From an uncultured Verrucomicrobiota bacterium (GTDB lineage: Bacteria; Verrucomicrobiota; Verrucomicrobiia; Limisphaerales; UBA9464), in NCBI GenBank assembly GCA_903842505.1, contig CAIMMI010000078.1:1-36853 (forward strand): a stretch of DNA of 36,853 nucleotides, given 5' to 3'. The translations under genes and the position numbers were made by a program. How positions within the stretch are numbered: position 1 is the stretch's first letter; every line of letters starts with the position of its first letter. Positions 4,610 through 28,454 of the stretch are shown here, one piece after another. The notes under the pieces were generated by a model. It did not search any database. It was not told where the DNA came from and saw only the letters and a list, made by a program, of their open reading frames with translations.

Positions 4610-6115
4610 CTAGTTCTTCTTCGCCTCTTCCTTGGGCTTTGGAGCGGGCGGATTCGTCACGGCTGGCGGGGCATTGGTGGCAGCTCCGGCGGGGACGCCG
4701 AAATTGGCGGGGAGGCTGAGTTCGGTGCGGAGGCGGGCCTGGAACTCGGCGTTCACGCCGGAGGCGGGGTCGAGGAGACGCATGAGGACCTCGCGCTTGA
4801 GTTCTGCGAACGGACCGAGAGGCAGACGGACGACAGCGGATTTGTGGGTGGTACGCTGCTGGAAGTTCGAGTGGACCTTCTCGGCGAAGAGCATGAGACC
4901 CTGAGCCTGTTCGGCGTCGCCTCCGACGAGGTTGCCGTAGGCGGATTCGATGGAGCCCTCGACGATGGCCTTGATGCGGTCGCGGGAGGTTTCTCCGGCG
5001 TCCTCCTCGATGCGGGAGAGGGCGTAGTCCTCGAGGGTCCACTCGGGCTTGATGTTGGCGTTGGGCCCGTAGGTCTGTTTGCAGAACTCGAACCAGCGCC
5101 GGGCCTCGCGGAGGCGGTTGTACGTGTAAAGGAAGTAAACGGCATCCTTGAGGAAGTTGCGGTGGGCGCGGGCGAAGCTGTCGCGCATGCCTTCTTCCTC
5201 CTCGGCCTGGATCTGGTCGATGTAGGCCTTCGACGTGTTGTCGACCATGTCGAGGTTCGGGCCGAACTGGATCCGCTGGGTGTAGTTGTTGGTGATGAGG
5301 CGTCCGCGGTGGAAGGCCATCATCATCGGCTGAAAAATGTTTCGGCGGAGCATCCGGACGTCACCGGCGCCGCGTCCCTCGCGGAGTCCGCGCGTGGCCC
5401 AGTAGATGGCGTGGGTTTCGGGGAGGCGCCATTCGAGGGGACCGTAGGTGTCGTCGACCAGCTTCATCAGGGCTGGTTCGAGCTTGTACCGTTCAACGAG
5501 ATTCTTGACGCGGGCGACGGCCTCCGGGGTCTTGGGGTTGAGGAGGGAATCGTAATCCGGGCGTCCACCGCCGATGGCTTCGTCCATGGCCTCCGCCCAA
5601 TGAGCTTTGTAGGTGAGGTGGGCGTCGTCGAGGTTCGCGCCCATCTTGTGGTGGAAGTGGCGGGCGAGCTCGGAGTGGATGTCGATGGCGTGGGGATTGT
5701 ACTTCAGGCCTTCGTCGCGGAGCAGTTCGATGCCGCGCTGGACCCAGAGCCAACGATCCTCGGGATCGGGGAACTTGACCGAGATGTTGTAGGACAGATT
5801 CCAGGCGAGGTGGACCCAGACGGCGGAGAAGTGCGGCTGGAGCTTGGTGATCCAGTCGGAGAGTTGGACGGCTTCGAAGTGCTTTCCTTCGTCCTGGAGT
5901 TCGGAGGAGCGGATCCAGAGGGCGTTGGCGATGATGCCGCGGAATCCGCCGAGTGCGACCGTGGTGAAGGCGAGGACGGGCGGGGCGTTGGAAAGGACGG
6001 TCGACTTCGTGAGGCCGAGTTGGTCGCGGTCGCGATTGAGCCGGACCTGGAAGAAATGGCCCGCAACCAGGGCGAGGACGGCGATGGCGATGAGGCCGGT
6101 CTTGCGGAGGTTCAT
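4610..6115 (-). CDS. Membrane-anchored protein of unknown function, repeat-like helical
   Basis: A 501-residue protein with one hydrophobic segment at about residues 7-24 (signal anchor), then a long soluble, Trp- and Arg-rich region that should lie outside the cytoplasmic membrane. The region with [20 protein letters not shown] and a following W-rich stretch (about residues 65-110) looks TPR-like, with alternating helices, but I cannot name a family. The last 25 residues are rich in Pro, Ala and Lys, like a flexible tail. The ATG overlaps the stop of the ABC permease gene by 4 nt (ATGA), implying translational coupling and a shared role with the transporter, for example as a periplasmic partner. 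That role is inference. It is the last gene of the eight-gene cassette. Confidence 0.85.
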
Positions 6116-7911
6116 GTGGGCAGGGCGATTTCGCGGCGGGTGAGGATGATCATCCCTGCGGCTCCGAGGGAGCCACCGGCGATGCCGACGACGACGATGA
6201 AGGCGCGGGCGAGATCCGACCAGGTGACGGACCGGCCGGTGGAAAGGGCGTCGACGGGTGAGAAGCTGGAGACCTGATTGAGGACCCAGTAGGCGCTTCC
6301 GTAGACGATGACGGACGCCTGGTTGAGGAGCGTGGGTTGGGTGATGGTCCCAGTCTCGGTGTTCACGCCGATGATGCCGCCTTGTTCCACGACCTGCTTG
6401 AGGGTGCCGGAAGAGAGTCCGACGACGAGCAAGGCGAGCGAGACGAAGGAGGCGACAGGGAACGAGAGGAACGACGCGGAGAACAGGCCGATGGCGGTAA
6501 GGAGACCGAGCCAGCAGACGATCACGCCGAGGCCGCGGGCGAAGTTCACGGCGAAGGGGGCTTCGGGCGTGAGGATCTGGATGCCGTCGGTGAGCGGGAG
6601 GACGACGGTGAGGCGACCGAGGTTGGCGTAGCGGATCACGAGCGAACCGTCGTCATTGATCTGGTCGGCGGAGATCGCGAACTCGCTGGGGACGTCGGGG
6701 CCGAAGTTGTTCACGAGTCGTTCCGGGGCGCGTTGGCGGGCCCCGCCAATTTCCCAGCCGTGATCGAACGAAGCGTCCATGCCCACGTACTCCGGGGTGA
6801 AGAACTTGACGCGGACGAAGATCGGCTTGCCCTTGAAACGTTCACGGGCGCCTGAGCCGAGTTGGAAGGTGTAGGGCAGCGGACGGAACTGGCCGGCGGG
6901 GACGGCCTGGAGGCGTCCTTCGAGTTGGGCGCGGACCTGCTTCTTCACGAAGAGCGGATCCATGGACGAGAGGGACGGATCGCGTCGGCGCTTCTCGAAC
7001 TCGGCCTCGACGTCCGGGTCGATGTTCAGGATCGCGGCTGGGACGGTTTCGCGGGCGACGAGGATCTCGTTCTGGAGCTTGGCGAGTTGGGCTGGGGGCA
7101 GTTGCTGGGCGCGCGCGAGCAGGAGGCCGAAGACGATGGCCCCGGAGACGGCCACCATGCTGGCGTTGAGGACCATGATGCCAATCCATTTGCCGAGCCA
7201 GATCTGCCAGCGGGGAATGGGTTTGACGGTGACGAGGAAGAGGGACATGTCCTCGATGTCGCGGGCCAGGGTGCCGCAGGCGAGCCAGAGCGAGGAGAAG
7301 CCGAGGAGTCCCGTGATGGCGGTGAGGGTGTAGGCCAGGAGGATCTGGGAGAATCCGGTGGCGGTGCCGTCATGCTTGATGATGCCGGGAAGGATGAAGA
7401 CCGCGGCGATGAGGAGGGCGAGAAGGACGACGACGAACCGGTACCGGATGGCGGCCTTCAGGGTGAGGATCGCCACGGCGAATACGGCGCGAAGGTTCTT
7501 CGGTGCGATGTCCGGGACGCCGGCGAGGTAACGGGCCCGCCATTCGGGAAGGGGTTGCCCACCGACCTGCGCCAGCATGGCGATGGCCGTGGCTCCATCC
7601 CGGGCCTGGATCGTGCAGACGTATCCGAAGCCGCGGCGTTCGGCGGAGAGCTCCCGGAAGTGGCGGGCGTAGAATCCGACGGCCAGGCCGAAGAGGGCGT
7701 TGATCCCGAGGTGGAGGGTCCAGGGGACCTGATTCACGTAGAGGACACCGGCGAGGATCGATTGGGCGATCAGGACGGTGGCTCCTTCGATCCAGAGGCG
7801 TTGGAGCAGGATCCAGATCGGTCCGAGCAGGAACGCAATCGGCGAGAAGCCCGTGGACACGGCGATCCGTGTCCCGGCTTCATCGGCGTAGATTTCGAAG
7901 CGGCGCTTCAT
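6112..7911 (-). CDS. ABC-2 type transporter permease, large
   Basis: A 599-residue membrane protein. After N-terminal hydrophobic segments, the part around residues 155-275 resembles NosY-type ABC-2 permeases, including the pattern CGTLARDIEDMSLFLVTVKP and a following W-x-G-K-W helix. A large hydrophilic domain of about 190 residues (about 275-465) then sits between membrane segments. The C-terminus has several more helices (about 470-530 and 565-595). The large inter-helix domain is reminiscent of permeases in the NatB/YhgE style. It lies 12 nt downstream of the ABC ATPase gene, so the two probably form one exporter or membrane-remodelling complex. The substrate is unknown. Confidence 0.85.
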   Translation of the reverse strand: MKRRFEIYADEAGTRIAVSTGFSPIAFLLGPIWILLQRLWIEGATVLIAQSILAGVLYVNQVPWTLHLGINALFGLAVGFYARHFRELSAERRGFGYVCTIQARDGATAIAMLAQVGGQPLPEWRARYLAGVPDIAPKNLRAVFAVAILTLKAAIRYRFVVVLLALLIAAVFILPGIIKHDGTATGFSQILLAYTLTAITGLLGFSSLWLACGTLARDIEDMSLFLVTVKPIPRWQIWLGKWIGIMVLNASMVAVSGAIVFGLLLARAQQLPPAQLAKLQNEILVARETVPAAILNIDPDVEAEFEKRRRDPSLSSMDPLFVKKQVRAQLEGRLQAVPAGQFRPLPYTFQLGSGARERFKGKPIFVRVKFFTPEYVGMDASFDHGWEIGGARQRAPERLVNNFGPDVPSEFAISADQINDDGSLVIRYANLGRLTVVLPLTDGIQILTPEAPFAVNFARGLGVIVCWLGLLTAIGLFSASFLSFPVASFVSLALLVVGLSSGTLKQVVEQGGIIGVNTETGTITQPTLLNQASVIVYGSAYWVLNQVSSFSPVDALSTGRSVTWSDLARAFIVVVGIAGGSLGAAGMIILTRREIALPT

Positions 7912-7923
7912 GTCGGGTGCCGG

Positions 7924-9186
7924 CTATTTGCGTCCGCCGAGGAGTCCGGAGAGCTTGTCGTTCGCCTTGGAGAGGTCAACAGGGGCCTTGGGCTGAGCCG
8001 GGGAGGCTGGATCTGCGGCGGTGGGTGCTGTCGGCGCGGGTGCGGGTGCCGGAGTCGGTGCGGGTGTTGGTTCCGCGGCCTTGGTCAGGGCGGCGAGACG
8101 GGATTGGTCGACCGCAGCGGTCGGAGTGGGCGTGGCGACGACGGGTTCGGTGGAAGAAGCCGCTGTCGTGGGACGCGTGAGGCGGTCGAGGACGGCATCG
8201 GTCTGGTTGGAAGCAGCCTCAGCGGAACCGCCGCGGATGAACTGGGCGACCTGGTTGCCGGAGGTGGCGCCGCTGGTCTTGGCCTGGGCGCGGGCCCGTT
8301 CGACGACGTCGAGGAAGTAGCTCTCGAGGTTCTGGGTCGGGTTGTCGAGGCGGACCTTGTCGCCGACCTCGGCGCGGAGGGTGGCCAGGACCTTCTCGGT
8401 GGTTTCGCGCGACACGATGGGGCTCGTGATGCGGACCTGGTCGGGGCGGGCGAGCAGTTCGTGGAGAGTGCCCTGGGCCTGGATGCGGCCGCCGTAATAG
8501 ATGACGACTCGGTCGCAGAGGTCCTCGACATCGGCGAGGAGGTGGGAGGAAAGGATGACGGTCTTGCCGCGGCGGGCGAGGGCGACGATGAGGTCCTTGA
8601 CTTCGCGACAGCCGAGCGGGTCGAGGCCTGCGGTGGGTTCGTCGAGGATGATGAGGTCGGGATCGTTGATCAGGGCCTGAGCGATGCCGATGCGGCGCTG
8701 CATGCCCTTGGAGAACTCGCCGACGGTGCGGGAACGGGCCTGACTGAGGCCGACCATCTCGATGAGCTGTTCGGTGCGTTGGCGCCGTTCGGCGGCGTCG
8801 AGTTGGAACAGGGATCCGAAGAAGTCGAGCGTCTCGCCGGGGTTTAGGTAGCGGTAGAGGTAGGACTCCTCGGGGAGGTAGCCGATGCGGGCCTTGGTAC
8901 GGACGTCGCGGGGGGATTGATTGAAGACAGTGATGGCCCCCTTGGTTGGGTAGAGGAGGCCGAGCATCATCTTGATGGTCGTGGATTTTCCGGAACCGTT
9001 GGGTCCGAGCAGACCGAAGATCTCGCCGCGACGGATCTCGAAGTCGACGTTGTCGACGGCGCGGGCCTTCGGCCGACCCCAGAAGTCCTTGAAGACCTTG
9101 GTGAGGCCTGCGGCGCGGACGACGACCTCATCCGAGGGCGCGGGGCGCGAGGAGGCGGGGGAGGTGAGGGTCTGGGAGTTCGCCAT
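7924..9186 (-). CDS. ABC transporter ATP-binding protein with Pro/Ala-rich C-terminal tail
   Basis: A 420-residue ATPase subunit of an ABC-2 (NatA/CcmA/NosF-like) transporter. Walker A is GPNGSGKS at 61-68, the ABC signature FSKGM at 158-162, Walker B LIILDE at 178-183 followed by the D-loop PTAGLD, and the switch His in SSHLL at 213-217. All are intact, so it should hydrolyse ATP. The usual nucleotide-binding domain ends near residue 300. Beyond it lies an unusual extension of about 120 residues, with a Pro/Ala/Thr-rich linker at about 372-402 and a short basic end. The tail may tether a partner, but this is unproven. It sits just before the large permease gene. A second candidate permease (15316-16275) lies in the same cassette. 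Confidence 0.93.
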   Translation of the reverse strand: MANSQTLTSPASSRPAPSDEVVVRAAGLTKVFKDFWGRPKARAVDNVDFEIRRGEIFGLLGPNGSGKSTTIKMMLGLLYPTKGAITVFNQSPRDVRTKARIGYLPEESYLYRYLNPGETLDFFGSLFQLDAAERRQRTEQLIEMVGLSQARSRTVGEFSKGMQRRIGIAQALINDPDLIILDEPTAGLDPLGCREVKDLIVALARRGKTVILSSHLLADVEDLCDRVVIYYGGRIQAQGTLHELLARPDQVRITSPIVSRETTEKVLATLRAEVGDKVRLDNPTQNLESYFLDVVERARAQAKTSGATSGNQVAQFIRGGSAEAASNQTDAVLDRLTRPTTAASSTEPVVATPTPTAAVDQSRLAALTKAAEPTPAPTPAPAPAPTAPTAADPASPAQPKAPVDLSKANDKLSGLLGGRK

Positions 9187-9242: not shown

Positions 9243-11276
9243 TCAGGCCGGGACCAGTGAGGGCTTGGGCGCGGTGCGGCCGGTGCTGGGGGTGGAGTCC
9301 GAGCCGGCATCGGCCTGGGTCGGAGCGTGGAAGGGTTCGAGTTCCTCGCCCATGCGCACGAGTCGCGCGGAGTTGAACACGACGATCAGGGAGCCGGCGT
9401 TGTGCATGATGGCGGCGACGATGGGATTGAGGTAGCCCATGGCGGCTGCGGCGAGGCCGCCAATGATGAAGAAGACGCCGAAGAGGAAGTTCTGGTTGAT
9501 GACCGAGCGGGCCATGCGGCTGAGCTTCACGAGGAAGGGCAGTCGGCGGAGGTCGCTGTTCATGAGCGCGATGGTCGCGGAGTTGATGGCGACCTCGGAA
9601 CCGGCGGCGCCCATGGCGATGGAGATGTCGCCCGCGGCGAGGGCTGGAGCGTCATTGACGCCGTCGCCGATGACGGCGACACGGTGGCCCTTGGCCTTGG
9701 TGGCGCGGACGTACTCGACCTTGTCCTGCGGAAGGCACTCCGCGACGACCTCGGTAATGCCGATCTCGAGGGCGACGCGTTCAGCGACGGGCTTACGGTC
9801 GCCGGAGACCATCGCGATGCGGCGGATGCCGGTTTCCTGAAGTTCCTTCAAGGCGGTGGCGGCTTCGGCGCGGGTTTGGTCCTGAAGGCCGACCCAGCCG
9901 ATGCACTTGCCATCCCGCGCCACGAACAGGAGCGAGAAGCCAGCGGTCTCATCGAGGTCGACGGAGGCCATGAAGTCCTCGCGGACGCCCTGGTCGCGGA
10001 GGAAGGCGGCTCGGCCAATGACAACGCGGGTTCCGTCGACGGTGGCGGCGACGCCCTTGCCGGCGGTTTCCTTGAAGTCGGAGACGTCGGCGAGGGGAAC
10101 GCCGGCTTCCTCGGCGAGGTTGACGACCGCCTTGGCGGTGGGGTGATTGGAGAACCGTTCCGCGGAGGCGGCGGCGCGGAGGAGATCGGCCGGGGCGACG
10201 TCGTTGAGCGGGTTGAGGCGTGAGACGACGAGCTTTCCGGTGGTGAGCGTGCCGGTCTTGTCGAAGACGAATGCGGTGATGCGGGCGGCGGCTTCGAGGT
10301 CGGCGAGGTTCTTGACGAGGATTCCGAGGCGCGCGGCAGCGGAGAGCGCGGCCACCATGGCAGTGGGGGTGGCCAGGATGAATGCGCAGGGGCAGGCGAC
10401 AACGAGGACGGCGATGACGCGGTTCAGGTCGCGGGTGAAGGCCCAGACGAGGGCGGCGATGACCAGGACGAGGGGCGTGTAGTAGCCCATGTACTGGTCG
10501 ATGATCCGCATGAAGGGGAGCTTGGTCTTTTCGGCGGCGAGGATCAGTTCGCGGACGCGACCAATGGTGGTGTCCTGGCCGGCCTTGGTGACTTTCACTT
10601 CGAGGGCGCCGTTCAGGTTGATCGTTCCGGCGAACACCTGATCACCGGGGCCCTTGTCCACGGGCAGGGATTCACCGGTGATGTTGGCTTGGTTGATCGA
10701 ACCCTGGCCGGAGACAATCTGGCCGTCGGCGGCGATGTTGTCACCGGGACGGATCCGGATCGTGTCGCCGACGCGGAGGTCGGCGGCGGCGATTTCTTCC
10801 TCACGGCCCTCCGAGAGGCGGCGGGCCTTGGTGGGGGTCAGCTTGATGAGGGACTGGATCGATGCGCGGGCGCCGGCGGCGGTGCGGGTCTCGATGAGTT
10901 CCCCGAGCAGCATGAAGAACGCGACAATGCCGGCGGTCTTGAAGTCGCCGGTGGCGGCCGAGGCGAGGACGCCGAGTGCGACGAGTTCGTTGATTGAGAG
11001 ACGGCCGAGGCGGAGATCCTTGAAGGCGACAACCAGGATGGGCCAGCCGAGGACGACGGCGCCGAGTAGGGCGGAGAGTTCGGCAACGGTCGTTCCCTTG
11101 GTGAAGAACCAGTCGATCGCGAAGGAGTTCACGATGCAGACGGCACCGAGAAGCGTCTGCCAGAGCTTGACGTTGGTGTGCGAGTGGTCGAGCCCGCCGT
11201 GGTCGTGGCCACAGTCGCAGTCATTCGGGTGCTTTTTCGGATCCTCGTCGAGGCTGAGCAGGGAGGTGACTTGCAT
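9243..11276 (-). CDS. P1B-type heavy-metal transporting ATPase
   Basis: A 677-residue metal-translocating P-type ATPase of the inner membrane. The catalytic set is complete: TGES at 200-203 (actuator), phosphorylated Asp339 in DKTGT, the P1B-specific HP dipeptide at 378-379, and GDGVND at 537-542. The transmembrane metal-site motif CPC is at 295-297. There is no HMA domain. Instead, residues 16-33 form a short His/Cys/Asp-rich stretch that could bind metal. The C-terminal helices lack the Asn-Tyr and Met-x-x-Ser signatures of copper pumps. They also lack the Lys/Asp signature of zinc/cadmium pumps, carrying HNAGS at 625-629 where ZntA has its aspartate. Metal specificity is therefore open; Mn, Zn or another divalent ion are possible. 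It lies between the SPFH genes and the ABC genes. Confidence 0.93.
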   Translation of the reverse strand: MQVTSLLSLDEDPKKHPNDCDCGHDHGGLDHSHTNVKLWQTLLGAVCIVNSFAIDWFFTKGTTVAELSALLGAVVLGWPILVVAFKDLRLGRLSINELVALGVLASAATGDFKTAGIVAFFMLLGELIETRTAAGARASIQSLIKLTPTKARRLSEGREEEIAAADLRVGDTIRIRPGDNIAADGQIVSGQGSINQANITGESLPVDKGPGDQVFAGTINLNGALEVKVTKAGQDTTIGRVRELILAAEKTKLPFMRIIDQYMGYYTPLVLVIAALVWAFTRDLNRVIAVLVVACPCAFILATPTAMVAALSAAARLGILVKNLADLEAAARITAFVFDKTGTLTTGKLVVSRLNPLNDVAPADLLRAAASAERFSNHPTAKAVVNLAEEAGVPLADVSDFKETAGKGVAATVDGTRVVIGRAAFLRDQGVREDFMASVDLDETAGFSLLFVARDGKCIGWVGLQDQTRAEAATALKELQETGIRRIAMVSGDRKPVAERVALEIGITEVVAECLPQDKVEYVRATKAKGHRVAVIGDGVNDAPALAAGDISIAMGAAGSEVAINSATIALMNSDLRRLPFLVKLSRMARSVINQNFLFGVFFIIGGLAAAAMGYLNPIVAAIMHNAGSLIVVFNSARLVRMGEELEPFHAPTQADAGSDSTPSTGRTAPKPSLVPA

Positions 11277-11342: not shown

Positions 11343-12422
11343 TCAGCGGTTGGCGTCTTCGCGCTTGCGGGGCGTTTCGGGTTCGCGGCTGAGGTTCAGG
11401 CGGAGTTCCTCGACGCGGCCGGGTTGGAAGAACTTGTCCTGGGCGTTGGTCAGCACGCGGCCGACAGTCGCGATGCGAAGGCGCTCGCGGAGCAGGGACG
11501 GGTTCTTTTTGTATTCCACGAGTTGCTGCTGGAAGAACTGGGCGTCCGCGGAGACGGCCTGGACGAGTTGGTTCGACATGCCGAGGCCGACGTCGCGGGC
11601 GCGCTTGGCTTCACCCTCGGCTTCGCGGGTGATGCGGTCGTATTCGCCCTGGGCCTCGTTGATCTTCCGGGAGCGGTCCTGTTCGGCAGCGATGACCTGA
11701 TCGAAGTAGGTCTTCACGAATGCCGGAGCGGCGACCTCGACATCAAGCGTGTCGAGGGACACGCCGATCTGGTGACGCTGGATGAGGTCGGCAGCGCGCT
11801 GGCGGATGGTGTCGCGGAAGGCGACGCGGTCCTTGTAGAGGGCAGCGTCCGCGGAGTACCGGACGGCGGCCCAGTGAATCGCATTGTCGAGGGTATCGCG
11901 GAGCAGGTTGGTGACGTTGGAGAACTGGAAGGTGTAGGCGACGGGATTGTCGATCTTGTACCGGAGGGTGGCGCGGACGTGGAGGATGTTTCCGTCGGCA
12001 GTGAGCACGTGGCCGTCGACGCCCGGGGTCAGGGCCGCGTTGGCCTGAGGTTGGAGACCGGCCGCCTCGTCCTCCGGCGAGATGGCATACCAGGCGCCGG
12101 TGGCACGGATGACCTTGGACTCGCCGATCTGGACCTTGACGATTTCGTCGATGGGATAGGGGAAGGCCCAGTGGAGGCCCTGACGCTTGATCTGGCTGGA
12201 GCCTTCGCCGACCGGGCGGCCGAAGCGGAGGACGATGGCGACCTCGTTCGGATTGACGGTGAAGACGCAGGAAAAGAGGAACGCGCCGGCGAGGACGATG
12301 GCCAGGATCCGGATGAGCAGGAGCGAACTGCCGAGCGCCTCGTTCAGGGCCTGGGATGACGCGTCATCCGAGGGGACGGGCGAGTTCGTCGGTTGGAGAT
12401 TGCCTGAGGAAGGGGCGGCCAT
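11343..12422 (-). CDS. SPFH/band 7 protein, HflK-like
   Basis: A 359-residue stomatin/prohibitin-family protein. It has a hydrophilic N-terminus, one membrane segment at about residues 32-52, then the SPFH domain starting with NPNEVAIVLRFGRPVG and a GLHWAFPYPID segment, both typical of HflK. A long charged helix (about 250-320) should form the coiled coil through which these proteins assemble into rings. Classical HflK pairs with HflC around the FtsH protease. The gene immediately upstream, 5 nt away, is HflC-like, so a heteromeric ring is likely. No ftsH is in the window, so a role as an FtsH modulator is not established. The domain could instead organise the neighbouring pump and transporter in a membrane microdomain. 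Confidence 0.88.
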   Translation of the reverse strand: MAAPSSGNLQPTNSPVPSDDASSQALNEALGSSLLLIRILAIVLAGAFLFSCVFTVNPNEVAIVLRFGRPVGEGSSQIKRQGLHWAFPYPIDEIVKVQIGESKVIRATGAWYAISPEDEAAGLQPQANAALTPGVDGHVLTADGNILHVRATLRYKIDNPVAYTFQFSNVTNLLRDTLDNAIHWAAVRYSADAALYKDRVAFRDTIRQRAADLIQRHQIGVSLDTLDVEVAAPAFVKTYFDQVIAAEQDRSRKINEAQGEYDRITREAEGEAKRARDVGLGMSNQLVQAVSADAQFFQQQLVEYKKNPSLLRERLRIATVGRVLTNAQDKFFQPGRVEELRLNLSREPETPRKREDANR

Positions 12423-12427: not shown

Positions 12428-13348
12428 TCAGCGGTTGGCCGGGACGCGGAGCCCGGGGAAGTTCGAGGTAGAGTCACCCTTGAGCAGGTTGAAGGGCGGG
12501 GTGCGCTCGTCGAGGATGAGCGTGGAACGTTCCTTCAGGGAACCCTCGAGGGATCGCAGCGACAGGAGGAACACCGCGAGTTCAGGATCCTGCTGAAGCG
12601 TCTGGTAGTGCTTGCTGGCTTCCTGTTCGGCGCCACCCAGGATGCGTTGGGCCTCGTTCTCGGCCTGGGCGATGAGTTCCTTCCGGCGGAGTTCCGCTTC
12701 GGAGCGGATGCGATCGGCCTCGGCATTGCCTTCGCCCTGGTACTTCTTCACGAGTTTTTCGCGCTCGCTCTTCATGCGTTCGAAGACCTTGGCGGTGAGG
12801 GCCTCGGGCAGGCCCAGTTCCTTGATGCCGACGAGGTCGATCGCGACTCCGTAGGCGGAGAGGGTGGTGGCGGCCATGACCGCCTTCATCTCGCCCTCGA
12901 TGACGTCGAATCGCACCTTGGAGGGGTCGGGAGAAATGAGTTCGGAGAAATCATGGTTGCCGATGACGGAGTTCTTGGCGTCGCGGACGACGTTTTCGAG
13001 GGTCTGCTCGGCCTTGAGCAGGTCTCCGTTGAAGGATTCGAGGAATCGCTTGGGATCGGCGATTCGCCATCCGACGTACACGCTCAGGATGGGCGACTTC
13101 TTGTCGCGGGTGAACTGCTGCTCGTACTTCCGTTCGAAGGTCTGCAGGCGTTTGTCGAACTTGTAGACCTTCTGGATGGGAAGGGGTGCGCGGAGGTAGA
13201 TTCCGGCATTGGTCTGGCTGCTGGAATAGCGGCCGAAGGTGGTGACGACGGCGACCTCGGTGGTGCGGACCTGGTAGCAGAACAGGAGCGCCAGGAACAC
13301 CAGGAGCAGGAGGGAGCCGACCAGCAGCGTGAGCGGATTCTTCTTCAT
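12428..13348 (-). CDS. SPFH/band 7 protein, HflC-like
   Basis: A 306-residue protein, close to HflC length. The N-terminus MKKNPLTLLVG leads into a single membrane segment (about 7-26), then an SPFH domain with VRTTEVAVVTTFGRY, GIYLRAPLPIQKVYKFDKR and YVGWRIADPKRFL, all HflC-like. A charged helix around residues 190-260 follows, rich in E, R, K and A with the AEADRIRSEAELRRKELIAQ type of heptad pattern, and then a short C-terminal tail. Topology is expected to be N-in with the SPFH domain periplasmic, as in HflC. It lies between the polytopic SPFH gene (60 nt upstream) and the HflK-like gene (5 nt downstream). The family call is firm, the partner assignment is inferred from context. Confidence 0.88.
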   Translation of the reverse strand: MKKNPLTLLVGSLLLLVFLALLFCYQVRTTEVAVVTTFGRYSSSQTNAGIYLRAPLPIQKVYKFDKRLQTFERKYEQQFTRDKKSPILSVYVGWRIADPKRFLESFNGDLLKAEQTLENVVRDAKNSVIGNHDFSELISPDPSKVRFDVIEGEMKAVMAATTLSAYGVAIDLVGIKELGLPEALTAKVFERMKSEREKLVKKYQGEGNAEADRIRSEAELRRKELIAQAENEAQRILGGAEQEASKHYQTLQQDPELAVFLLSLRSLEGSLKERSTLILDERTPPFNLLKGDSTSNFPGLRVPANR

Positions 13349-13408: not shown

Positions 13409-15295
13409 CTACTTCTTCTCGTCCTTGCCCTTCACGGGGTCGAGGGGGATGTCGAGGACGTCCCGGCGCAGTTTCTCGGTGAGATCCAGGATGACGACAT
13501 CGTGGGTATTGGTGGGCATGACCACGTACTTGCGGGTGTTCCCAAGGGCCGACCGCAGGGTTTCGAGGTAGTTGCGGGCGGGAAAGACGTCGGGAGCGGC
13601 CCGGAAACTGGCGACCTGATGGGCGAAGCGTGCGGCACGGCCGGAGGCGTCATTCACATAAACGACGTTGTCTGCCTTTGCCTGATTGACGGTCCTCGCC
13701 GCCAACGCCCGCGCTGCGGGCAGGGTTTCGTTGGCGAAACCTTCTGCTTCGAGGATCCGGGCTTCCTTCTCCTGTTCGGCCCCGATGACCTGCTCATACG
13801 CGGCGGCAACCTTGATCTCCTTGTTGCCGATGGGAGGGTGGATGTCCTGGAGACCAATGAAGGTGATTTCGGTGCCGAGCCCGGCTTGGACGGCCGATTC
13901 CTGGATCCGGCGGCGGAGTTCGCGAGAAGCGTCGGCTCGCCCGCTGGACATGATCAGGTCGACGTCCACGGAGGCGAGGTACCGGACGACCTCGCGATTG
14001 GCGATCTGTTCGAGGAGGCGTGCGGGTTGGGCGTGGTTGTATCCCCACGCGGCAGCATTGGTGACGACGAACTGGACCGGGATCGAGACGGTCAGGAGGT
14101 TGGCCGGGACCGTCTGGTCCGCGTCAGCGGCGTTGGTGGATTGTTCGCGGGAGGCGACGAGCAGGTTGAACTCGGTCTTGTAGTGCGAGCGGGTCCAGAG
14201 AACGGTGTTTTCCCTCTCGAGGGTTGGGTCCGGAACGAAGCCGACGTTGAAGGTCTGGACTGCCCGGGTGTTGATGCGTTCGACCGCGTCCATCGGCCAC
14301 GGGAACTTGAAATGGAGGCCGGAATCGAGCGTGGCGACGGGTCGCCCGAAGCGTTCGTGGAGTCCCTGTTCACCGGGTTCGATCACGACAAGGGTGGTCG
14401 AGAGGAATAGGGCCCCAGCCTGGGCAAGGATGATCCAAGCGATGGCGCTCTCGAGGAACCGGTAGAACCAGGTTTCACTGACCTTGAAGCCGAACTGGTA
14501 ATCGAGCGCCTGGGCGGCGGTCGAAAAAAGTCCGGTGGGCTGGCCGAGGATTCCCACGAGACGGCTTTCGTAAATCAGCCTCTCTTCGCGGTCCTTCACC
14601 CGCGGGCGGTAGGCCTCAAACACCAGGGCGAAGAGGCTTTCGAGGGCAACCAGTCCAAAGATGGCAATGCCAACCAACGCGATGTGGCGGTCCCAGTTGG
14701 GGTAGCCGGCGTAGACGGCAATCTCAGTCCCCGCGGTGATGAAGCAGAACAGTCCGCCAAGCACCAGGTGGGCAGCGCCCGGTCGGAGCAGGCGGACGTT
14801 GGCGTAGCGGGCGAGCTTGGCTGCGTAAAGGCCCAGCAGGAGCAGGAAGAGGCCCAGACCAGCGAACGAGGCGCTGGCGAGGGTGGAAGGCTCCACCCGC
14901 GGCATGGGCCATTCCTTGAAGCGGAGGTAGAACCAGTAGGTGGCACCTGCCTGGGCGGCGAAGAGCAGGATCGTGAAGGTCGGAACGATCCAACGCTCGA
15001 AGGAAAGCCGGGCGCGTTGGGCAGGGAAGGCGTCCGCGGCGGATTCGGCAAAGAGGGAGGAATCCGCTCGCCGACGGGCGAGGTCCTCCATTTCGAGGCG
15101 CTCGGCGTCTTCCCGGCTTGCAAGCCGCATCTGGAACCACGCCATCAGGGCGATCAACGCTCCGATGAACAGGTTGGCGGCCGCGATCTCACCCATCGTG
15201 GAGACGGCAATCCGGGAGAGCGCCTCCGCACCGAGTGCAGCGACGATGAGCGCAAGCCAGTTGACGAGGCCGGTCCGATTGAAGTTCTGGTCCAT
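13409..15295 (-). CDS. Polytopic SPFH protein, HflK-like domain fused to a multi-helix membrane domain
   Basis: A 628-residue protein, much longer than standard HflK (about 400). Hydrophobic segments fall near residues 11-31, 35-55, 100-122, 142-163, 173-195, 203-225 and 281-303. The first six form an extra membrane domain, and the seventh is the usual pre-SPFH anchor. The SPFH domain starts at about 303 (VVIEPGEQGLHERFGRPVA), with GLHFKFPWPMDAVE at 326-339, and continues into a charged helix at about 495-545. The long linker at 385-395 is Ala/Asp-rich. I know the HflK family but not a function for this architecture. It is the third SPFH gene in a row, 20 nt downstream of an ABC-2 permease, so it likely belongs to the same complex. 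Confidence 0.85.
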   Translation of the reverse strand: MDQNFNRTGLVNWLALIVAALGAEALSRIAVSTMGEIAAANLFIGALIALMAWFQMRLASREDAERLEMEDLARRRADSSLFAESAADAFPAQRARLSFERWIVPTFTILLFAAQAGATYWFYLRFKEWPMPRVEPSTLASASFAGLGLFLLLLGLYAAKLARYANVRLLRPGAAHLVLGGLFCFITAGTEIAVYAGYPNWDRHIALVGIAIFGLVALESLFALVFEAYRPRVKDREERLIYESRLVGILGQPTGLFSTAAQALDYQFGFKVSETWFYRFLESAIAWIILAQAGALFLSTTLVVIEPGEQGLHERFGRPVATLDSGLHFKFPWPMDAVERINTRAVQTFNVGFVPDPTLERENTVLWTRSHYKTEFNLLVASREQSTNAADADQTVPANLLTVSIPVQFVVTNAAAWGYNHAQPARLLEQIANREVVRYLASVDVDLIMSSGRADASRELRRRIQESAVQAGLGTEITFIGLQDIHPPIGNKEIKVAAAYEQVIGAEQEKEARILEAEGFANETLPAARALAARTVNQAKADNVVYVNDASGRAARFAHQVASFRAAPDVFPARNYLETLRSALGNTRKYVVMPTNTHDVVILDLTEKLRRDVLDIPLDPVKGKDEKK

Positions 15296-15315: not shown

Positions 15316-16275
15316 TCAGCCAAGTTCTCGGTCTTCGAACAGGATCAGCGCGACAGAAAGTGCGGCCACGACCAGCGAGGCCGAGTACCCCGCCGCCCTT
15401 CCGACGTAGGCCCAGGGAATGGTTCCCTTGTCTTCGAGCGCTTCCGCGAGATAGAGCTGCTGCCAGTTCGGCGTCAGGTCATAAAGGATCTGAGCCCACC
15501 ATTGGCCAGTGCTCGCCGGCCGACCGAAGAGGTAGTCCGAGACCAACCCCAAGGCGAACAGGCCGGTGCAGACCGCCAGCGTCGGGATGGTGTCGAGTCG
15601 CGTGGAACACGCCAACGCCAGCGCCGCCAGCACGAACAAAGCGAAGAGGATCAGGACCGCCGCAGGGAGGATCCGCCAGTCCGCCGTGGCGGCCTCACCG
15701 AATGGAAGCTGCTTCTGGGTGAAGAAGACGAGGTAACCCGCAGCAAGCGCCGTCGCCAACGCGAAGCCCAGGACGGCATCGGCAACGAACGGACGGCGCA
15801 GAAAGAAATTGAGGAACCCGGCGGTTGCATAGCCTGCGATTCCAGCTCCGTAGTAGAGGGCCAGCGCCTGGATGTCGGCGGAGCCGTAAGCGTCGAAGGC
15901 CATCCAGCTGGCCAGCAGGGTAGCGACGAGGTTGGACGCCGTCAGGAGGGTGAGGGTCGCGGCCAGTCCGGCATACTTGCCAAGAATGAACACCGACCTG
16001 CCCACGGGTTTGGCGAGCACGGTCAGGGCTGTACCCGTGCGGATCTCCTGCGCTACGGACGAAGAAGCACAAAGCACGGCGCCGAGCAGGCCCGAGAGCA
16101 GCGTCACGGCGAGGGACATGTCCTTGACCAACTTCGGGTCCTCACCCAGTCCGAAGTAAGGGACGGCTGCCAGGAAGACGATGAAGGCGCCCGAACTCGA
16201 CAGCAGCAGCAGGTAGATTGGTTGGCGGACCAATTCCAGGAAGGCGTTGACTGCGATGGTGACGAAGGGACGCAT
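15316..16275 (-). CDS. ABC-2 type transporter permease (NosY-like)
   Basis: A 319-residue, almost wholly hydrophobic protein with six to eight membrane segments. The N-terminus FVTIAVNAFLELVRQPIYLL and the loop with GTALTVLAKPVGRSVFILGKYAG (about residues 85-108) are the standard pattern of ABC-2 permeases of the NosY/YhfP type. It has no ATPase domain. The nearest ABC ATPase is six genes downstream in the same cassette (7924-9186), and the two could form one transporter together with the larger permease. No ATPase gene lies upstream within the window. This appears to be the first gene of the cassette. An in-frame ATG gives the expected start. Confidence 0.85.
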   Translation of the reverse strand: MRPFVTIAVNAFLELVRQPIYLLLLSSSGAFIVFLAAVPYFGLGEDPKLVKDMSLAVTLLSGLLGAVLCASSSVAQEIRTGTALTVLAKPVGRSVFILGKYAGLAATLTLLTASNLVATLLASWMAFDAYGSADIQALALYYGAGIAGYATAGFLNFFLRRPFVADAVLGFALATALAAGYLVFFTQKQLPFGEAATADWRILPAAVLILFALFVLAALALACSTRLDTIPTLAVCTGLFALGLVSDYLFGRPASTGQWWAQILYDLTPNWQQLYLAEALEDKGTIPWAYVGRAAGYSASLVVAALSVALILFEDRELG

Positions 16276-16343: not shown

Positions 16344-18077
16344 TCAAGGATTGGGGACGGAGTCGAACCAGTTGGTGATGAGGATGCGCTCGGCGGTCCG
16401 GAGCTTTTGGGACGAAAGAGGGCGTGCCACCCGGCGAGCCGCTTCGCGTTGGCCGGCATTTCCGAGTGCGGCGGCGTAGGCCATGCGGGCGCGGGAAGGG
16501 GGATTGGTGGAGCCGAGGAAAGGAAGTTCGATCACCTGGATTGCGCGATCCGCATTGCCTACGCGGAGGTGGGCGAGTGAAAGGGTGGCCAGATATCGGA
16601 GATCGGACGGGGAATCCTTGAGCAACTCCTCGGCCACGGCCCGGGACTCCTCAATGCGTTGTCCGGTGATCAGAAGCCACCATGCGCGCTCATTCCGGAG
16701 CTTGGCATCGCCTGGATTGACCTGAACCAAACGTTCGAGTGCCTGAAGCAGGGGTTGGGTGTCATCGACTCGATTGAGCAGGCGGAGAACCTTGGGGCCG
16801 GTCCGGGCGATCCGGCCGGGATCCGCCATGAGGTTCTGGAGTGCTTCGGCAGCGATGGCGGGTTGGTCGAAGGCCTCTGCGTAGCCGGCGACCACGCCTG
16901 CCAGGCTGGGATCGTTGCGCGTGCCTGAGGCAGCGCTCGCCAGATGCGCCGTGACCTCCTGTTCGGTGCCCAACCGGCTGGCAACCAGGGCGCGATAGAC
17001 ATCCCGCAGCACGGAGGGCAGGGGAAGCGAGGGGTCTTCGACGAGCTTCGCTGCCTCTTCCCATCGGTTGAGGTTGCCAAGTCCTTGAAGTTGGCGCTGG
17101 AGGACAGCGAGATTGGTCCTCGCCGCGGGTTCAGGGATCAACCCTAGACCTTCCGTGTGAAAACCTTGGGCGAACATCCAGTCGCAAAGGGTCAGGCGGG
17201 CACCCAGATCGGCATCGGCCGGCAGAGCCCTCAGGGCCGCCGCCGCTATTTCCGGACGAGGGGTGTTGGTCTGGACCCGCATCCCGACTTCCAGTCGAAC
17301 GAGCCCAAGGGCGAGTTGATTGGTGTGTGTGGATGGAATTCGACGGAGCAGCAATTTCAGTTCTGCAGGAGAAAGACTGTCCTGCGAGGAGAGCGATTGG
17401 ATGGAAGGCAGGAGAAATGGGTTATCGCGCAGGGCCAACCCCCAGAGGATCGTCTGTCCTTTTCGTTTGAGGTCGGCATCCCTTTGGGCGAGCAGGGTCC
17501 GGGCGAGGTGGAACTGGCCCTTGTCATTGTCCGGGAACTGTTCCGTCAGGGTCTTGGCTGCGACCAAGGCGTCCCGGGTCCTGCCCTCCATCAGGAGGGC
17601 TTTCATGCTCAATTCGAGGCAATCGAAGTCGTGGATGTCCTCCTGAAGCAGTCCGATCAGCAGTTGCCGGGCCTGTTCAGGTCGGTCGAGGCTGAGCAGG
17701 GAACGAACATATTCGATCCGGTCGGCGCGGGTTGCCCGTCCTGACTCCAGAAGGATCTGCCAGTACTGGATGGAGGTGGGGCTGCCCAGTTCCTGACAAA
17801 ACCTTGCGGTGGCGCGATGGACGTCGGGATCTTCGGACGCCAACGACAGGGCAAGCCGAATCCGCATCCCGGCCTTCTGGATGTTGCCCGACGCCATGTC
17901 GGAATCGATCCCGGCAAGGGCCTTGTGCGCCCGGGTGACCTTGTGCTTCCGGTAGATCGGGGGCACCGCAAAGCACGCCCCGATGACCAGGGCGAGCAAC
18001 AACCCCAACGCCACGGGAACCCGTCGCGTCGCGTCGGGCATCTGCGGCAGTCCCAGAGTGGGAGGGGGTGAACTCAC
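16344..18077 (-). CDS. Membrane-anchored TPR-like protein, hypothetical
   Basis: A 577-residue protein with one hydrophobic segment (about residues 20-40, VPVALGLLLALVIGACFAVPP), followed by a long stretch of alternating helices rich in Ala, Leu, Arg and Glu. It resembles degenerate tetratricopeptide repeats, for example VNPGDAKLRNERAWWLLITG and the segment after it near residues 460-510. The start codon here is GTG. An ATG twelve codons in, at 18041, would give a shorter N-terminus (MPDATRR) and an equally good signal anchor, and neither start has a clear ribosome binding site. It probably lies on the periplasmic face. It sits 68 nt upstream of the ABC-2 permease and may lead the cassette or be separate. 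No function can be assigned. Confidence 0.75.
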   Translation of the reverse strand: MSSPPPTLGLPQMPDATRRVPVALGLLLALVIGACFAVPPIYRKHKVTRAHKALAGIDSDMASGNIQKAGMRIRLALSLASEDPDVHRATARFCQELGSPTSIQYWQILLESGRATRADRIEYVRSLLSLDRPEQARQLLIGLLQEDIHDFDCLELSMKALLMEGRTRDALVAAKTLTEQFPDNDKGQFHLARTLLAQRDADLKRKGQTILWGLALRDNPFLLPSIQSLSSQDSLSPAELKLLLRRIPSTHTNQLALGLVRLEVGMRVQTNTPRPEIAAAALRALPADADLGARLTLCDWMFAQGFHTEGLGLIPEPAARTNLAVLQRQLQGLGNLNRWEEAAKLVEDPSLPLPSVLRDVYRALVASRLGTEQEVTAHLASAASGTRNDPSLAGVVAGYAEAFDQPAIAAEALQNLMADPGRIARTGPKVLRLLNRVDDTQPLLQALERLVQVNPGDAKLRNERAWWLLITGQRIEESRAVAEELLKDSPSDLRYLATLSLAHLRVGNADRAIQVIELPFLGSTNPPSRARMAYAAALGNAGQREAARRVARPLSSQKLRTAERILITNWFDSVPNP

Positions 18078-21136: not shown

Positions 21137-21835
21137 ATGAAGCAATTGATTCACCTTGCCGCCCTGGTTGCCGGGTCGGCCTCCGTCCTCGCGGGCGACG
21201 TCACGGGCATCGTTACCCTCAAAGGCACGCCACCGGCCGAGAAGCCGATTGCGCCGCTCGCAGCCGATCCCAACTGCGGCAAGGCCGCAAAGGGGCCGGT
21301 CAACACCCGCCACTACGTCGTGGGTTCCGGCGGTGGACTTGGAAACGTGTTTGTCTACGTCAAGGGCGGTCTGGAAGGGAAGAAGTTCGAGGCCCCGGCG
21401 ACGAAGGCGGTCATTGATCAGGTGGCCTGCCTGTATGAGCCCTACATGATCGGAGCCCAGGCTGGCCAGGCGGTCGAGATCCGTAACAGCGACGCGTTCC
21501 TGCACAACGTCAACTTCATGAAGTCTGAAGCTGGCAACACCACGTTCAACTTTGCCCAAGGGGCCGGGGCGAAGCCTGTCGAAAAGACCTTTGTCAACCA
21601 GGAGGTCTTCGCAAAGCTGCAGTGCAATGTGCATCCTTGGATGTTTGGCTACGTGGGCGTGTCGGCCACTCCGTACTTTGCTGTGACGGACAAGGATGGA
21701 AAGTTCACCCTCAAGGGCCTGCCTGCCGGCAAGTATACCGTGGCCTTCAAGCACCTGAAGGCCGGTGAAGTGACCCAGGAGCTCGAGGTCAAGGATTCGG
21801 GCGCCGAGGTCAAGGCCACGCTCGAGGTCAAGTAG
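21137..21835 (+). CDS. Periplasmic cupredoxin with C-terminal carboxypeptidase-regulatory-like domain
   Basis: A 232-residue exported protein. The signal peptide ends near residue 20 (SVLAG/D). The middle has a plastocyanin-like type 1 copper site with His123 (FLHNV), Cys163, His166 and Met169 in CNVHPWM. The short C-x2-H-x2-M loop is the amicyanin spacing. Residues 176-232 (YFAVTDKDGKFTLKGLPAGKYTV) form a transthyretin-like beta-sandwich, as in carboxypeptidase regulatory domains. Cupredoxins carry single electrons, so this one may feed or interact with the oxidase encoded downstream, or help deliver copper; neither is proven. It lies between ribH and heme A synthase, with its own leader structures and a strong hairpin after it, so it is probably a separate transcription unit. 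Confidence 0.85.
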   Translation: MKQLIHLAALVAGSASVLAGDVTGIVTLKGTPPAEKPIAPLAADPNCGKAAKGPVNTRHYVVGSGGGLGNVFVYVKGGLEGKKFEAPATKAVIDQVACLYEPYMIGAQAGQAVEIRNSDAFLHNVNFMKSEAGNTTFNFAQGAGAKPVEKTFVNQEVFAKLQCNVHPWMFGYVGVSATPYFAVTDKDGKFTLKGLPAGKYTVAFKHLKAGEVTQELEVKDSGAEVKATLEVK

Positions 21836-21858
21836 CCTCTGTTTCGTAGTCAACGTTG

Positions 21859-21899
21859 TGCCGCCGCGGGTCCTCCCGCGGCGGGCATCCTATATTGTT
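21859..21899 (+). terminator. Likely terminator after the cupredoxin gene
   Basis: CCGCCGCGGG (21861-21870), loop TCCT, CCCGCGGCGG (21875-21884) is a perfect ten-base-pair GC-rich stem starting 25 bases after the stop codon. It is followed by TATATTGTTT, a weak T-rich stretch. The stem is strong, the tail imperfect, so partial termination is possible. Confidence 0.6.
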
Positions 21900-21928
21900 T
21901 CGGCGATGGATGTGGTTTGAGGTGGGTC

Positions 21929-21943
21929 AATTTCCCTGAAATT
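21929..21943 (+). promoter_or_regulatory. Small inverted repeat abutting the ctaA start
   Basis: AATTTC, loop CCT, GAAATT ends two bases before the ATG at 21946. It occupies the place where a ribosome binding site would be, and no clear Shine-Dalgarno sequence is seen. It could be an operator half-pair or an mRNA structure affecting translation of the oxidase genes. The stem is short and AT-rich, so this is tentative. Confidence 0.3.
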
Positions 21944-21945
21944 CC

Positions 21946-23040
21946 ATGGGGTCGCGAGTGAACCAGCTTGCTGTTGGGACGGGTGTCCACGCTTTCGCCG
22001 TGTTTACTGCGATGTGGGCCCTGCTGGTCATTTCGATCGGGGGCTTGGTGACGTCGAAGGGGGTGGGAATGTCCGTGCCCGATTGGCCCACGACCTACGG
22101 TTACAACATGTTCTTCTTCCCCGTCCGACTTTGGGAGGGTGGAATCTTTCATGAGCATCTGCATCGGTTGGTCGCGAGCGCTCTAGGTCTGTGGACCGTC
22201 ATCCTTGCCGCGTGGATCACCGCGGTTCGGGCTGATCGGTCGGTGAGGTTGCTTGGGTGGGCCGCGGTCGTGGCGGTGGTTATCCAAGGGTTGTTGGGCG
22301 GAAAGCGGGTTCTGCTGAATAGCGTGGATGTTCTGGGCATACCCGGATCTGTCTTCTTCGGTGTGCTTCACGCCATGCTGGCACAGTTGTTTTTTGCCCT
22401 CCTTTGCACGATCGCCTTGATGACCGGTCGGGGATGGAAGCAATTGGTAGCAAAGGTCGCAGAGGCTCCGCCGGGCCGGGGTTGGATATATCTGATGCTG
22501 GTCGCGGGGGTAATCCTGCAATTGGCAGTCGCTGCGTCGATGCGACACCAGCACGCAGGTCTTGCAATCCCGGATTTCCCCTTGGCCTACGGTCGGGTTT
22601 TGCCTCCAACCGATCCGTCTTTCCTCGACCAGGTGAACCAGCGCCGACTGGGCGTCGTCGACGATGCACCCATCACGGCGTTTCAGGTCTGGCTGCAAAT
22701 GGGGCACCGGGGATTGGCCGTGCTTTTGGTTGGTCTCGTGGGGTTCCTGGCGTTTGCATCGCCTCACGAGCCGCGTGTTTGGAGGCTTTCCATCCGTTGG
22801 TTGTCAGCGCTTTTTGGAATCCAGTTTTGCCTGGGAGCCGCCACCATTTGGTCCAACAAGGCGGCCGATATCGCCACGGCCCATGTCGCTACTGGGGCAT
22901 CGATACTGGCGGGATGCTTCGTTATGGCTTTTGCCCGGTTCTCGGGCGAACGCCAAAGGAAGAAGAGATTCCAACCTTGCCCCAAGTCCTCCTGCCTTCT
23001 AAAAAGCCCCGCCGAGCCGGCAGGTGGCCAGCTCGTGTAG
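21946..23040 (+). CDS. ctaA: Heme A synthase, COX15/CtaA family
   Basis: Oxidises the C8 methyl of heme O to a formyl group to make heme A for the aa3-type oxidase, in the cytoplasmic membrane. The 364-residue protein has eight hydrophobic segments. The conserved heme-ligand histidines are visible in HEHLHR (69-74), MRHQHAG in the middle, GHRGLAV and TAHVATG near the C-terminus. The pattern GGLVTSKGVGMSVPDWPTTYG is diagnostic of COX15/CtaA. The C-terminal tail is basic. It heads the oxidase cluster, and ctaB starts within a few bases of its stop. The ATG at 21946 fits the conserved N-terminus. Confidence 0.93.
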   Translation: MGSRVNQLAVGTGVHAFAVFTAMWALLVISIGGLVTSKGVGMSVPDWPTTYGYNMFFFPVRLWEGGIFHEHLHRLVASALGLWTVILAAWITAVRADRSVRLLGWAAVVAVVIQGLLGGKRVLLNSVDVLGIPGSVFFGVLHAMLAQLFFALLCTIALMTGRGWKQLVAKVAEAPPGRGWIYLMLVAGVILQLAVAASMRHQHAGLAIPDFPLAYGRVLPPTDPSFLDQVNQRRLGVVDDAPITAFQVWLQMGHRGLAVLLVGLVGFLAFASPHEPRVWRLSIRWLSALFGIQFCLGAATIWSNKAADIATAHVATGASILAGCFVMAFARFSGERQRKKRFQPCPKSSCLLKSPAEPAGGQLV

Positions 23041-23044
23041 CAAG

Positions 23045-24112
23045 ATGTCGATCAAGTCTCCCATTGAAGCGGTCCAGCAGGTTGCAGAACCCATGTCTGC
23101 ACGTGCATCCGTGGGTACTTGGTGCGAGCTCTTCAAGGCTAGGCTCACCACCCTTGTTCTCCTGACCACTGCGGTAGGATACTGGTTCGCAAACCATGAG
23201 TCTGCCCTGGGATCGGGATTCTGGCTCGCTTTGGTTGGAACCGGGCTTCTCGCTGCGGGTGCCGCTGCGCTCAATCAGTACTGGGAAAGGGCCTCCGATG
23301 CGCTCATGCAGCGAACGGCCTCCCGTCCCATACCCAGTGGAGCGATCGAGCCTGCCTTGGCCTTGGCGGTTGGCGTGGTGCTGTCGATGGTTGGCATGCT
23401 GGAGCTCACTTTCCTCATAAATCCCCTGACCGGACTGCTGGGGATGCTGACACTGGCCAGTTATGTGTTCGTCTACACGCCCCTCAAGCGTCGGACGACC
23501 CTGAACACGCTGGTTGGGGCTGTGCCGGGAGCTTTGCCCCCGTTGATGGGTTGGACAGCCGCAACGGGTGAGTTTGGAACCGGTGGCTGGGTTCTGTTCA
23601 CCATCCTCTTCTTCTGGCAATTGCCCCACTTCATGGCGATCGCGTGGCTTTACCGCGAGGACTACGCCCGCGCGGGATTCCGGATGCTTCCGGTTGAGGA
23701 CGAGACCGGGCTGAGGACTGGTGCCACCGCCGTCCGACATACGGTTGCCCTGATCGCCTTCAGCCTCGCTCCCGTTGCTCTTGGATTGGCTGGGCGATGG
23801 TACGCCGCCTTTGCGGTGGTGGGCGGGATTGCCTTTCTCGGTTGTGCCATCGTCTTCGCGAGTCACCTCAGTCGCCAATCCGCCAGACGGCTGTTCTTCG
23901 CCAGCATCCTCTACCTGCCCATGATTCTGGGGGCTTTGGTAGCCGACAAGGCCAAGCAAGTCACACCCCTCGCCACTCGACAGACTGTTATGGCCTCCCG
24001 CCAGCGCGTCCCGTTCGAGCAGGCCTCCATTTCAACACCCTCAGCGAGCTCGAGTAGCCCTGAATCGAGAACCAAGAAGCCACGTTTTGAATTTCTGAAC
24101 ACCACTCCATGA
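23045..24112 (+). CDS. ctaB: Protoheme IX farnesyltransferase (heme O synthase)
   Basis: Attaches farnesyl to the heme B vinyl group to give heme O, the substrate of CtaA. The 355-residue membrane protein has about nine helices. The first polyprenyl-binding motif is N-x3-E-R-A-S-D-x-x-M-Q-R-T-A-S-R-P (about residues 77-93 from this start). The second loop holds HFMAIAWLYREDYARAGFRMLP. I chose the ATG at 23045. An in-frame GTG at 23024 would overlap ctaA by 17 bases, and another ATG at 23092 is possible. A Ser-rich tail of about 40 residues after the last helix is not typical. The stop overlaps the ctaD ATG by 4 nt. Confidence 0.93.
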   Translation: MSIKSPIEAVQQVAEPMSARASVGTWCELFKARLTTLVLLTTAVGYWFANHESALGSGFWLALVGTGLLAAGAAALNQYWERASDALMQRTASRPIPSGAIEPALALAVGVVLSMVGMLELTFLINPLTGLLGMLTLASYVFVYTPLKRRTTLNTLVGAVPGALPPLMGWTAATGEFGTGGWVLFTILFFWQLPHFMAIAWLYREDYARAGFRMLPVEDETGLRTGATAVRHTVALIAFSLAPVALGLAGRWYAAFAVVGGIAFLGCAIVFASHLSRQSARRLFFASILYLPMILGALVADKAKQVTPLATRQTVMASRQRVPFEQASISTPSASSSSPESRTKKPRFEFLNTTP

Positions 24113-25905: not shown

Positions 25906-25931
25906 GTTCGTCATCCTGAAATTCCAATAAT

Positions 25932-26786: not shown

Positions 26787-26796
26787 ATCTATAGTC

Positions 26797-27373: not shown

Positions 27374-27374
27374 A

Positions 27375-27629: not shown

Positions 27630-27650
27630 TACATTTTTATCGTTCTGAAC

Positions 27651-28433: not shown

Positions 28434-28454
28434 TGGGTTCGCGCATCATTATGG

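Follow-up and report, generated by a model that had tools for sequence, protein, structure and literature searches.

A six-helix HflK-type protein encoded in one unit with two SPFH proteins and a P1B-type ATPase in Verrucomicrobiota and on proteobacterial plasmids

Introduction

HflK and HflC, grouped as SPFH3 in a 2009 survey of prokaryotic SPFH proteins (PMC2636767), are described as single-transmembrane proteins (PMC13220708). Cages of HflK/C surround FtsH, and AQP1 and UT-B are housed in stomatin domes (PMC12407830). Co-encoded scaffolds are described for metal pumps as well: PacL1 assembles platforms of the P-type ATPase CtpC, and a P-ATPase can need such a scaffold for its efflux platforms (PMC9374683, available text). 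Which guests other than FtsH are hosted by bacterial SPFH cages is an open question. Here, we describe a stretch of 36,853 nucleotides (contig CAIMMI010000078.1, analyzed as a whole and referred to as the window) from an uncultured Verrucomicrobiota bacterium. It encodes HflK6, an HflK-type SPFH protein of 628 amino acids with an N-terminal six-helix domain (13409..15295, minus strand, as are all features below unless marked otherwise). The available main text of the 2009 survey contains none of the terms “ATPase”, “cation”, or “Verrucomicrob” and mentions no such fusion (PMC2636767). A literature search, with most subscription journals outside its coverage, returned no description of the gene module around HflK6 and nothing on a cation diffusion facilitator (CDF) with an SPFH domain or on a fusion of HflK with a cation efflux protein.

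Results

A conserved four-gene unit

In transcription order, HflK6 is followed by an HflC-like SPFH protein (core gene 2, 12428..13348), by HflK2, a second HflK-like SPFH protein with a single anchor (core gene 3, 11343..12422), and by a P1B-type metal-translocating ATPase (core gene 4, 9243..11276) with a His/Cys-rich N-terminus. Conservation of this quartet was evaluated in 120 loci, namely 80 taken by name, 20 from close relatives, and 20 from other parts of the phylum, with six duplicate pairs leaving 114 distinct ones. It is intact in 108 of them (103 of the distinct set), while the remaining 12 have a contig edge within 1.7 kb of HflK6 and keep the order of those genes that are present. 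HflK6, HflC, HflK2, and the P1B-type ATPase are an invariant four-gene unit of Verrucomicrobiota and of proteobacterial plasmids. The first-pass annotation had placed HflK6 as the third SPFH gene in tandem beside a regular HflK-like and HflC-like pair. Three tandem SPFH genes are present, but HflK6 comes first in transcription order, and only the HflC-like protein exceeds the cut-off of its model (TIGR01932), whereas HflK2 stays below that for HflK (143.3 vs. 159.4 bits) and both fall into module-specific clades.

The module is widespread in Verrucomicrobiota. Its six-helix domain was found in 145 of 387 genomes of the phylum, which is a lower bound because two missed genomes (G080 and G125) carry the module. 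Both emerged from a co-occurrence check, in which 24 genomes without a match to this domain were searched for HflC and the P-ATPase; close matches to both occurred only in these two, each carrying all four genes. The order in G125 is P-ATPase-HflK6-HflC-HflK2, so the linkage has outlived a rearrangement. Ordinary single-anchor HflK-HflC-like pairs were seen in five genomes (G070, G072, G116, G123, and G128), and the stretches of 10-18 kb around them gave no match to the module P-ATPase. The architecture of HflK6 is not a product of chance, since relatives are encoded in 57 of 58 related genomes, a few as contig-end fragments only. Three genomes harbor two complete module copies with diverged members (G251, L181/L182; G103, L183/L184; G286, L179/L180). 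Several contigs (L059, L065, L067, L069, and others) are titled Akkermansia muciniphila; their HflK6 groups with uncultured Verrucomicrobia and Pedosphaera, and they are possibly mislabelled metagenome-assembled genomes.

Beyond Verrucomicrobiota, the survey covered a plasmid collection as well as E. coli genomes and phages. A protein search of the plasmids revealed unusually long HflK genes in Rhizobium, Paraburkholderia, and Burkholderia. Annotated quartets occur in Paraburkholderia sprentiae, Rhizobium tumorigenes (twice), Burkholderia ubonensis, and Klebsiella aerogenes, in each case as a long HflK (607-673 codons, 569 in Klebsiella) with two SPFH genes and then a P-type ATPase downstream; the SPFH genes are labelled “protease modulator HflK”, “protease modulator HflC”, or “SPFH domain-containing protein”. 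Unannotated Rhizobium plasmid records show the P-ATPase at matching distance and strand, and the pump lies alongside in all 10 long-HflK plasmid records. Eight other plasmid records match the anchor and SPFH part only. The cassettes of B. ubonensis and K. aerogenes reside on conjugative plasmids, the former with insertion sequences on either side. Three plasmid relatives score 66-71 bits against the HflK model TIGR01933 (cut-off 159.4), and alignment of the plasmid N-terminal domains with the verrucomicrobial ones by hhalign gave 96% probability over the last helices and the linker. The E. coli genomes searched with the Klebsiella cassette DNA and the phages searched with the N-terminal domain gave no match. 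In P. sprentiae (L263, 100-7694), the cassette adjoins a zinc ABC importer, a GTP-binding protein, a DUF2946 protein, and a PCu(A)C copper chaperone, that is, a metal-homeostasis neighborhood.

Architecture of HflK6

Residues 1-230 of HflK6 (14606..15295) form the six-helix membrane domain, hereafter the N-domain. They are followed by a predicted cytoplasmic linker (residues 231-286, 14438..14605), an HflK-type membrane anchor (residues 287-305, 14381..14437) recognized by hydropathy and in the full-length model, and the SPFH/Band 7 domain as delimited by Pfam (residues 304-519, 13739..14386). Of 77 aligned orthologues, 90% or more share the start M1. The linker, of low predicted local distance difference test score (pLDDT) in the AlphaFold2 model of residues 1-285, holds the motif that is best conserved across the family, YESRL..LLGQ...LDYQFGFKVSETW; part of this pre-anchor stretch matches HflK2. 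Band_7 is the sole Pfam family in HflK6 (63.4 bits, cut-off 23.6), placing the protein within the SPFH/Band 7 superfamily. It remains below the TIGR01933 HflK equivalog cut-off of NCBIfam (135.9 vs. 159.4 bits) and departs from the single transmembrane anchor of HflK by six further helices.

The claim of the first-pass annotation that about 280 residues with six helices precede the SPFH anchor held up. Hydropathy (mean of at least 1.35) detected the anchor and five of the six helices, and the AlphaFold2 model of residues 1-285 alone (80 sequences; pLDDT 79, predicted template modelling score (pTM) 0.74) displays all six as long helices within residues 3-229 (3-30, 33-76, 91-128, 137-165, 168-195, and 200-229). 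The full-length model (pLDDT 76, pTM 0.42) contains the same helices, an anchor helix at 276-299, and the SPFH fold, with E. coli HflK as top PDB match in Foldseek (E 5e-15). Counts of Lys and Arg flanking the helices mostly agree with a cytoplasmic N-terminus and an outside SPFH domain, which is weak evidence; the topology of CDF proteins, to which the N-domain is compared below, is N-in/C-in.

Probable kinship of the N-domain with CDF transporters

Family models gave little information on the N-domain: no Pfam family exceeds its cut-off in residues 1-285, and residues 1-284 searched alone up to E 10 returned only two matches, far under cut-off and neither of them Cation_efflux. Among 80 N-domain members, PF01545 matched four weakly (best E 0.0067), below the family cut-off. 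Structural comparison pointed to the CDF/ZnT/YiiP transporters. The first seven PDB rows of a Foldseek search with the N-domain model are CDF transporters (E 0.057-0.13, TM-score about 0.5), and in VIA-align, ranks 1-26 are all CDFs with Z from 19.4 down to 8.0, the first non-CDF following at 7.7. As a common arrangement alone can take helical bundles to a Z of about 13, the fifteen rows above this value are the relevant ones, and all are CDFs. With the best of them, the model superimposes over 198 residues at a root-mean-square deviation of 2.6, so that the N-domain, as predicted, adopts the six-helix CDF fold.

Profile comparison used 46 CDFs taken from the related genomes and N-domain alignments of 80 close members or of a larger set of 139, of which 41 are distant. 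The close set aligned with the CDFs at E 3.3e-5 over 109 columns and the larger one at E 8.3e-6 and 83.5% probability across 195 columns that span helices 1 to 6. Controls with perm1, perm2, the P-ATPase, HflC, ctaA, ctaB, and cox3 reached at most 2.2% over three N-domain profiles. When helices were reordered, the true order scored 45.7 against the CDF profile, 60 permuted orders at most 38.1, and the reversed profile 20.8. These comparisons support the view that the N-domain is a distant relative of the CDF/ZnT/YiiP membrane domain over all six helices. A match of residues 1-280 to a known domain, named at the outset as a result that would refute the first-pass reading, has come only in part: the predicted fold is a known one, that of CDFs, but no family model exceeds its cut-off and the metal site is absent.

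This absence became evident at the columns in helices 2 and 5 that align with YiiP D45, D49, H153, and D157, which we take to be the CDF metal ligands. Asp, Glu, or His occupies these four columns in 36, 46, 46, and 46 of the 46 real CDFs, in comparison to 0, 0, 6, and 0 of the 139 N-domains, which thus lack the Asp/His site that marks a CDF. No other conserved Asp, Glu, or His was found in helices 2 and 5 of this set in any register. At residues 45 and 180, which face two CDF aspartates, 93 and 83 of 98 closer N-domains have Gly. Judged by these alignments, the CDF metal site is gone from HflK6. Invariant in all 139 N-domains are Glu219 in helix 6 (14639-14641), which is also present in seven aligned plasmid copies, and Arg230 just after this helix.

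The co-encoded pump

The co-encoded ATPase exceeds the heavy-metal P-type cut-off and carries CPC at position 295, DKTGT, and HN in its last helix (HNAGS at 625). The available text of PMC9374683 characterizes CtpC as a “P1B6-like” ATPase by CPC and HN, and both motifs are present in the window protein and in 7 of 7 plasmid P-ATPases. Among 103 distinct module P-ATPases, DKTGT is found in 102, CPC in 93, the last-helix His in 93, and an Asn after that His position in 55. The motifs of the module P-ATPase permit no assignment of the metal.

Phylogeny of the SPFH proteins

A tree of 76 SPFH proteins (midpoint root, several long-branch rows) has strong support on 42 of 73 inner branches. HflK6, module HflC, and HflK2 each form a clade of 22 rows, with support of 100/97, 99/84, and 98/92, respectively, and plasmid copies nest inside each of the three. 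Classical HflK/HflC pairs stand beside HflK2 (92/78) and beside module HflC. By this tree, the module appears old, with an origin of the long HflK beside HflK2 and classical HflK.

Neighboring genes and rejected members

The window reads in one direction as TPR577, permease 1, HflK6, HflC, HflK2, P1B-type ATPase, ABC ATPase, permease 2, and a 501-aa protein, with gaps of -4 to 68 bases. ABC-2-like permease 1 (15316..16275) lies 20 bases upstream of HflK6 and is found upstream in 104 of 120 loci. Downstream of the pump, an extended module comprises an ABC transporter ATP-binding protein (7924..9186), permease 2 (6112..7911), and, as its conserved last gene, the 501-aa protein (4610..6115), which has no family assignment and overlaps permease 2 by 4 bases. 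In Verrucomicrobiota, 90 of 98 loci with enough contig have the ATP-binding protein next to the pump gene, but the ABC genes are missing among the annotated neighbors in four plasmid stretches (L264, L265, L267, and L269) and were therefore assigned to the extended module instead of the core. The 577-aa TPR gene (16344-18077) was rejected as a member, with matches in only 6 of 100 loci. Further along the window (21137-29126, plus strand), genes named from their translations encode a cupredoxin-like protein, ctaA, ctaB, cox1, cox3, cox2, and a sco-like protein. A copper or cytochrome-oxidase role of the module was dropped, with cox or cta genes near it in only 2 of 120 loci (L058 and L059). The source genome has a further tandem SPFH pair (G000:C163, L004; 353 and 315 aa) fitting neither the HflK nor the HflC model.

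Discussion

We propose that HflK6 acts as the polytopic HflK subunit in a dedicated module of SPFH proteins and metal pump, with a cage around a transition-metal P-ATPase and a metal-dead CDF-like part for docking or gating, a reading in which our confidence is just past even. From the observed module and its linkage, we infer the cage around the pump. HflK6, HflC, and HflK2 would assemble together on the inner membrane as a ring or dome that faces the periplasm, like HflK/C around FtsH, and this ring would enclose or fence the P-ATPase as its guest. The CDF-like domain may be embedded in the membrane, either within the ring or alongside it, where it would dock or gate the pump without transporting anything itself. 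P1B pumps move metal from the cytosol to the periplasm, and because of this direction a transition metal would emerge inside the periplasmic chamber, which might serve to release it in a controlled way, to pass it on to a client, or to protect the pump. Considerably more tentative, and in our estimate somewhat doubtful, is the full picture of a so far undescribed, horizontally mobile set of four genes: a hetero-oligomeric SPFH vault would surround the transition-metal P-type ATPase, a CDF that lost its metal site and was fused to HflK would dock or gate it within the membrane, and the metal would be set free in a closed chamber of the periplasm. A possible recruitment of a transporter by the extra domain, as suggested earlier, is consistent with the invariant unit with a P1B-type ATPase and with the CDF-like predicted fold.

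Several observations weigh against this proposal. Gene linkage is no proof of a complex, and we infer the contact between pump and SPFH proteins. The N-domain model is of moderate confidence, no CDF reached E ≤0.001 in Foldseek (best 0.057), and the permuted-helix controls got to 38.1 of 45.7, so that part of the CDF signal comes from individual helices. HflK2 was also paired with the N-domain profile by hhalign, over about 25 columns of the shared pre-anchor stretch. The proteobacterial N-domains alone (7 sequences) showed no visible CDF link in hhalign (0.4%). In 7 of 20 distinct distant P-ATPases (among L168-L187 and L256-L257), CPC is altered while DKTGT is kept; therefore, the pumped ion may differ or these members may be degenerate. 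Within the genus, genome G007 yielded no match and has no close HflC or P-ATPase. Finally, FtsH is encoded in the source genome, which leaves some probability to a classical FtsH role.

Such a role would make the three SPFH proteins the HflKC of this lineage, controlling FtsH turnover of the co-encoded P-ATPase, with the CDF-like domain sensing the pump or presenting it as a substrate. HflK/C are known FtsH partners, mgtA of E. coli, a P-type ATPase, is named as a known FtsH substrate in the available text of PMC13220708, and no other Band_7 protein of the source genome (G000) passes the HflK or HflC cut-off. A link of the module to ftsH was nevertheless rejected, as the single copy in this genome lies unlinked to it. 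Other Verrucomicrobiota have classical HflK-HflC as separate two-gene units without an adjoining P-ATPase and in clades of their own, and a plasmid cassette holding only these four genes points to the pump and not to a housekeeping protease. We consider this explanation rather unlikely.

The remaining two explanations concern the N-domain itself. It could be an active, repurposed transporter moving an ion (perhaps protons or another cation) via the intramembrane Glu219 in a two-step path with the P-ATPase. The invariance of this residue, which extends to the plasmid copies, and the predicted transporter fold are in favor, but the metal-site helices 2 and 5 are devoid of conserved Asp, Glu, or His, and we know of no transport mechanism using such a lone Glu, so that this appears improbable. 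If, conversely, the CDF likeness were mere convergence of a six-helix bundle, the domain would be an unrelated membrane spacer that just widens the ring in the membrane. The weak Foldseek E-values, the lack of a Pfam family over its cut-off, and the missing CDF signal of the proteobacterial N-domains would agree with a spacer; the drop in Z from 19.4 to 7.7 at the first unrelated row and a collinear profile match through all six helices, well above controls, speak against it and leave it with very little probability.

If the proposed SPFH and metal-pump module is correct, a transporter fold would have been turned into a scaffold through loss of its metal site. With a cassette that brings along both cage subunits and a metal pump, the concept of an SPFH cage around a transporter becomes directly testable in culturable Proteobacteria.

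Comparison with known systems

The E. coli HflK/HflC cage around FtsH (PDB 7vhq, 7wi3, and 9cz2) shares with HflK6 the SPFH domain, the adjoining anchor, and the long C-terminal helix; its structures gave the best Foldseek matches of the full-length model, and a periplasmic orientation is to be expected. The module differs by the six extra helices, by three SPFH genes, and by a co-encoded P-ATPase, with ftsH located elsewhere. CDF/ZnT/YiiP transporters resemble the N-domain in their six-helix fold, as predicted, and in the collinear profile match, whereas HflK6 has erased metal-site columns, no cytoplasmic C-terminal domain, and a fusion to an SPFH protein. The stomatin domes likewise form an SPFH ring around transporters (PMC12407830); they differ in being cytosolic and eukaryotic, with no co-encoded metal pump and no polytopic subunit. 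Mycobacterial PacL1-CtpC, in turn, matches the module in that a scaffold is co-encoded with a P1B6-like ATPase bearing CPC and HN, but PacL is a small DUF1490 protein, its foci are flotillin-independent, and the term “SPFH” is absent from the available main text (PMC9374683).
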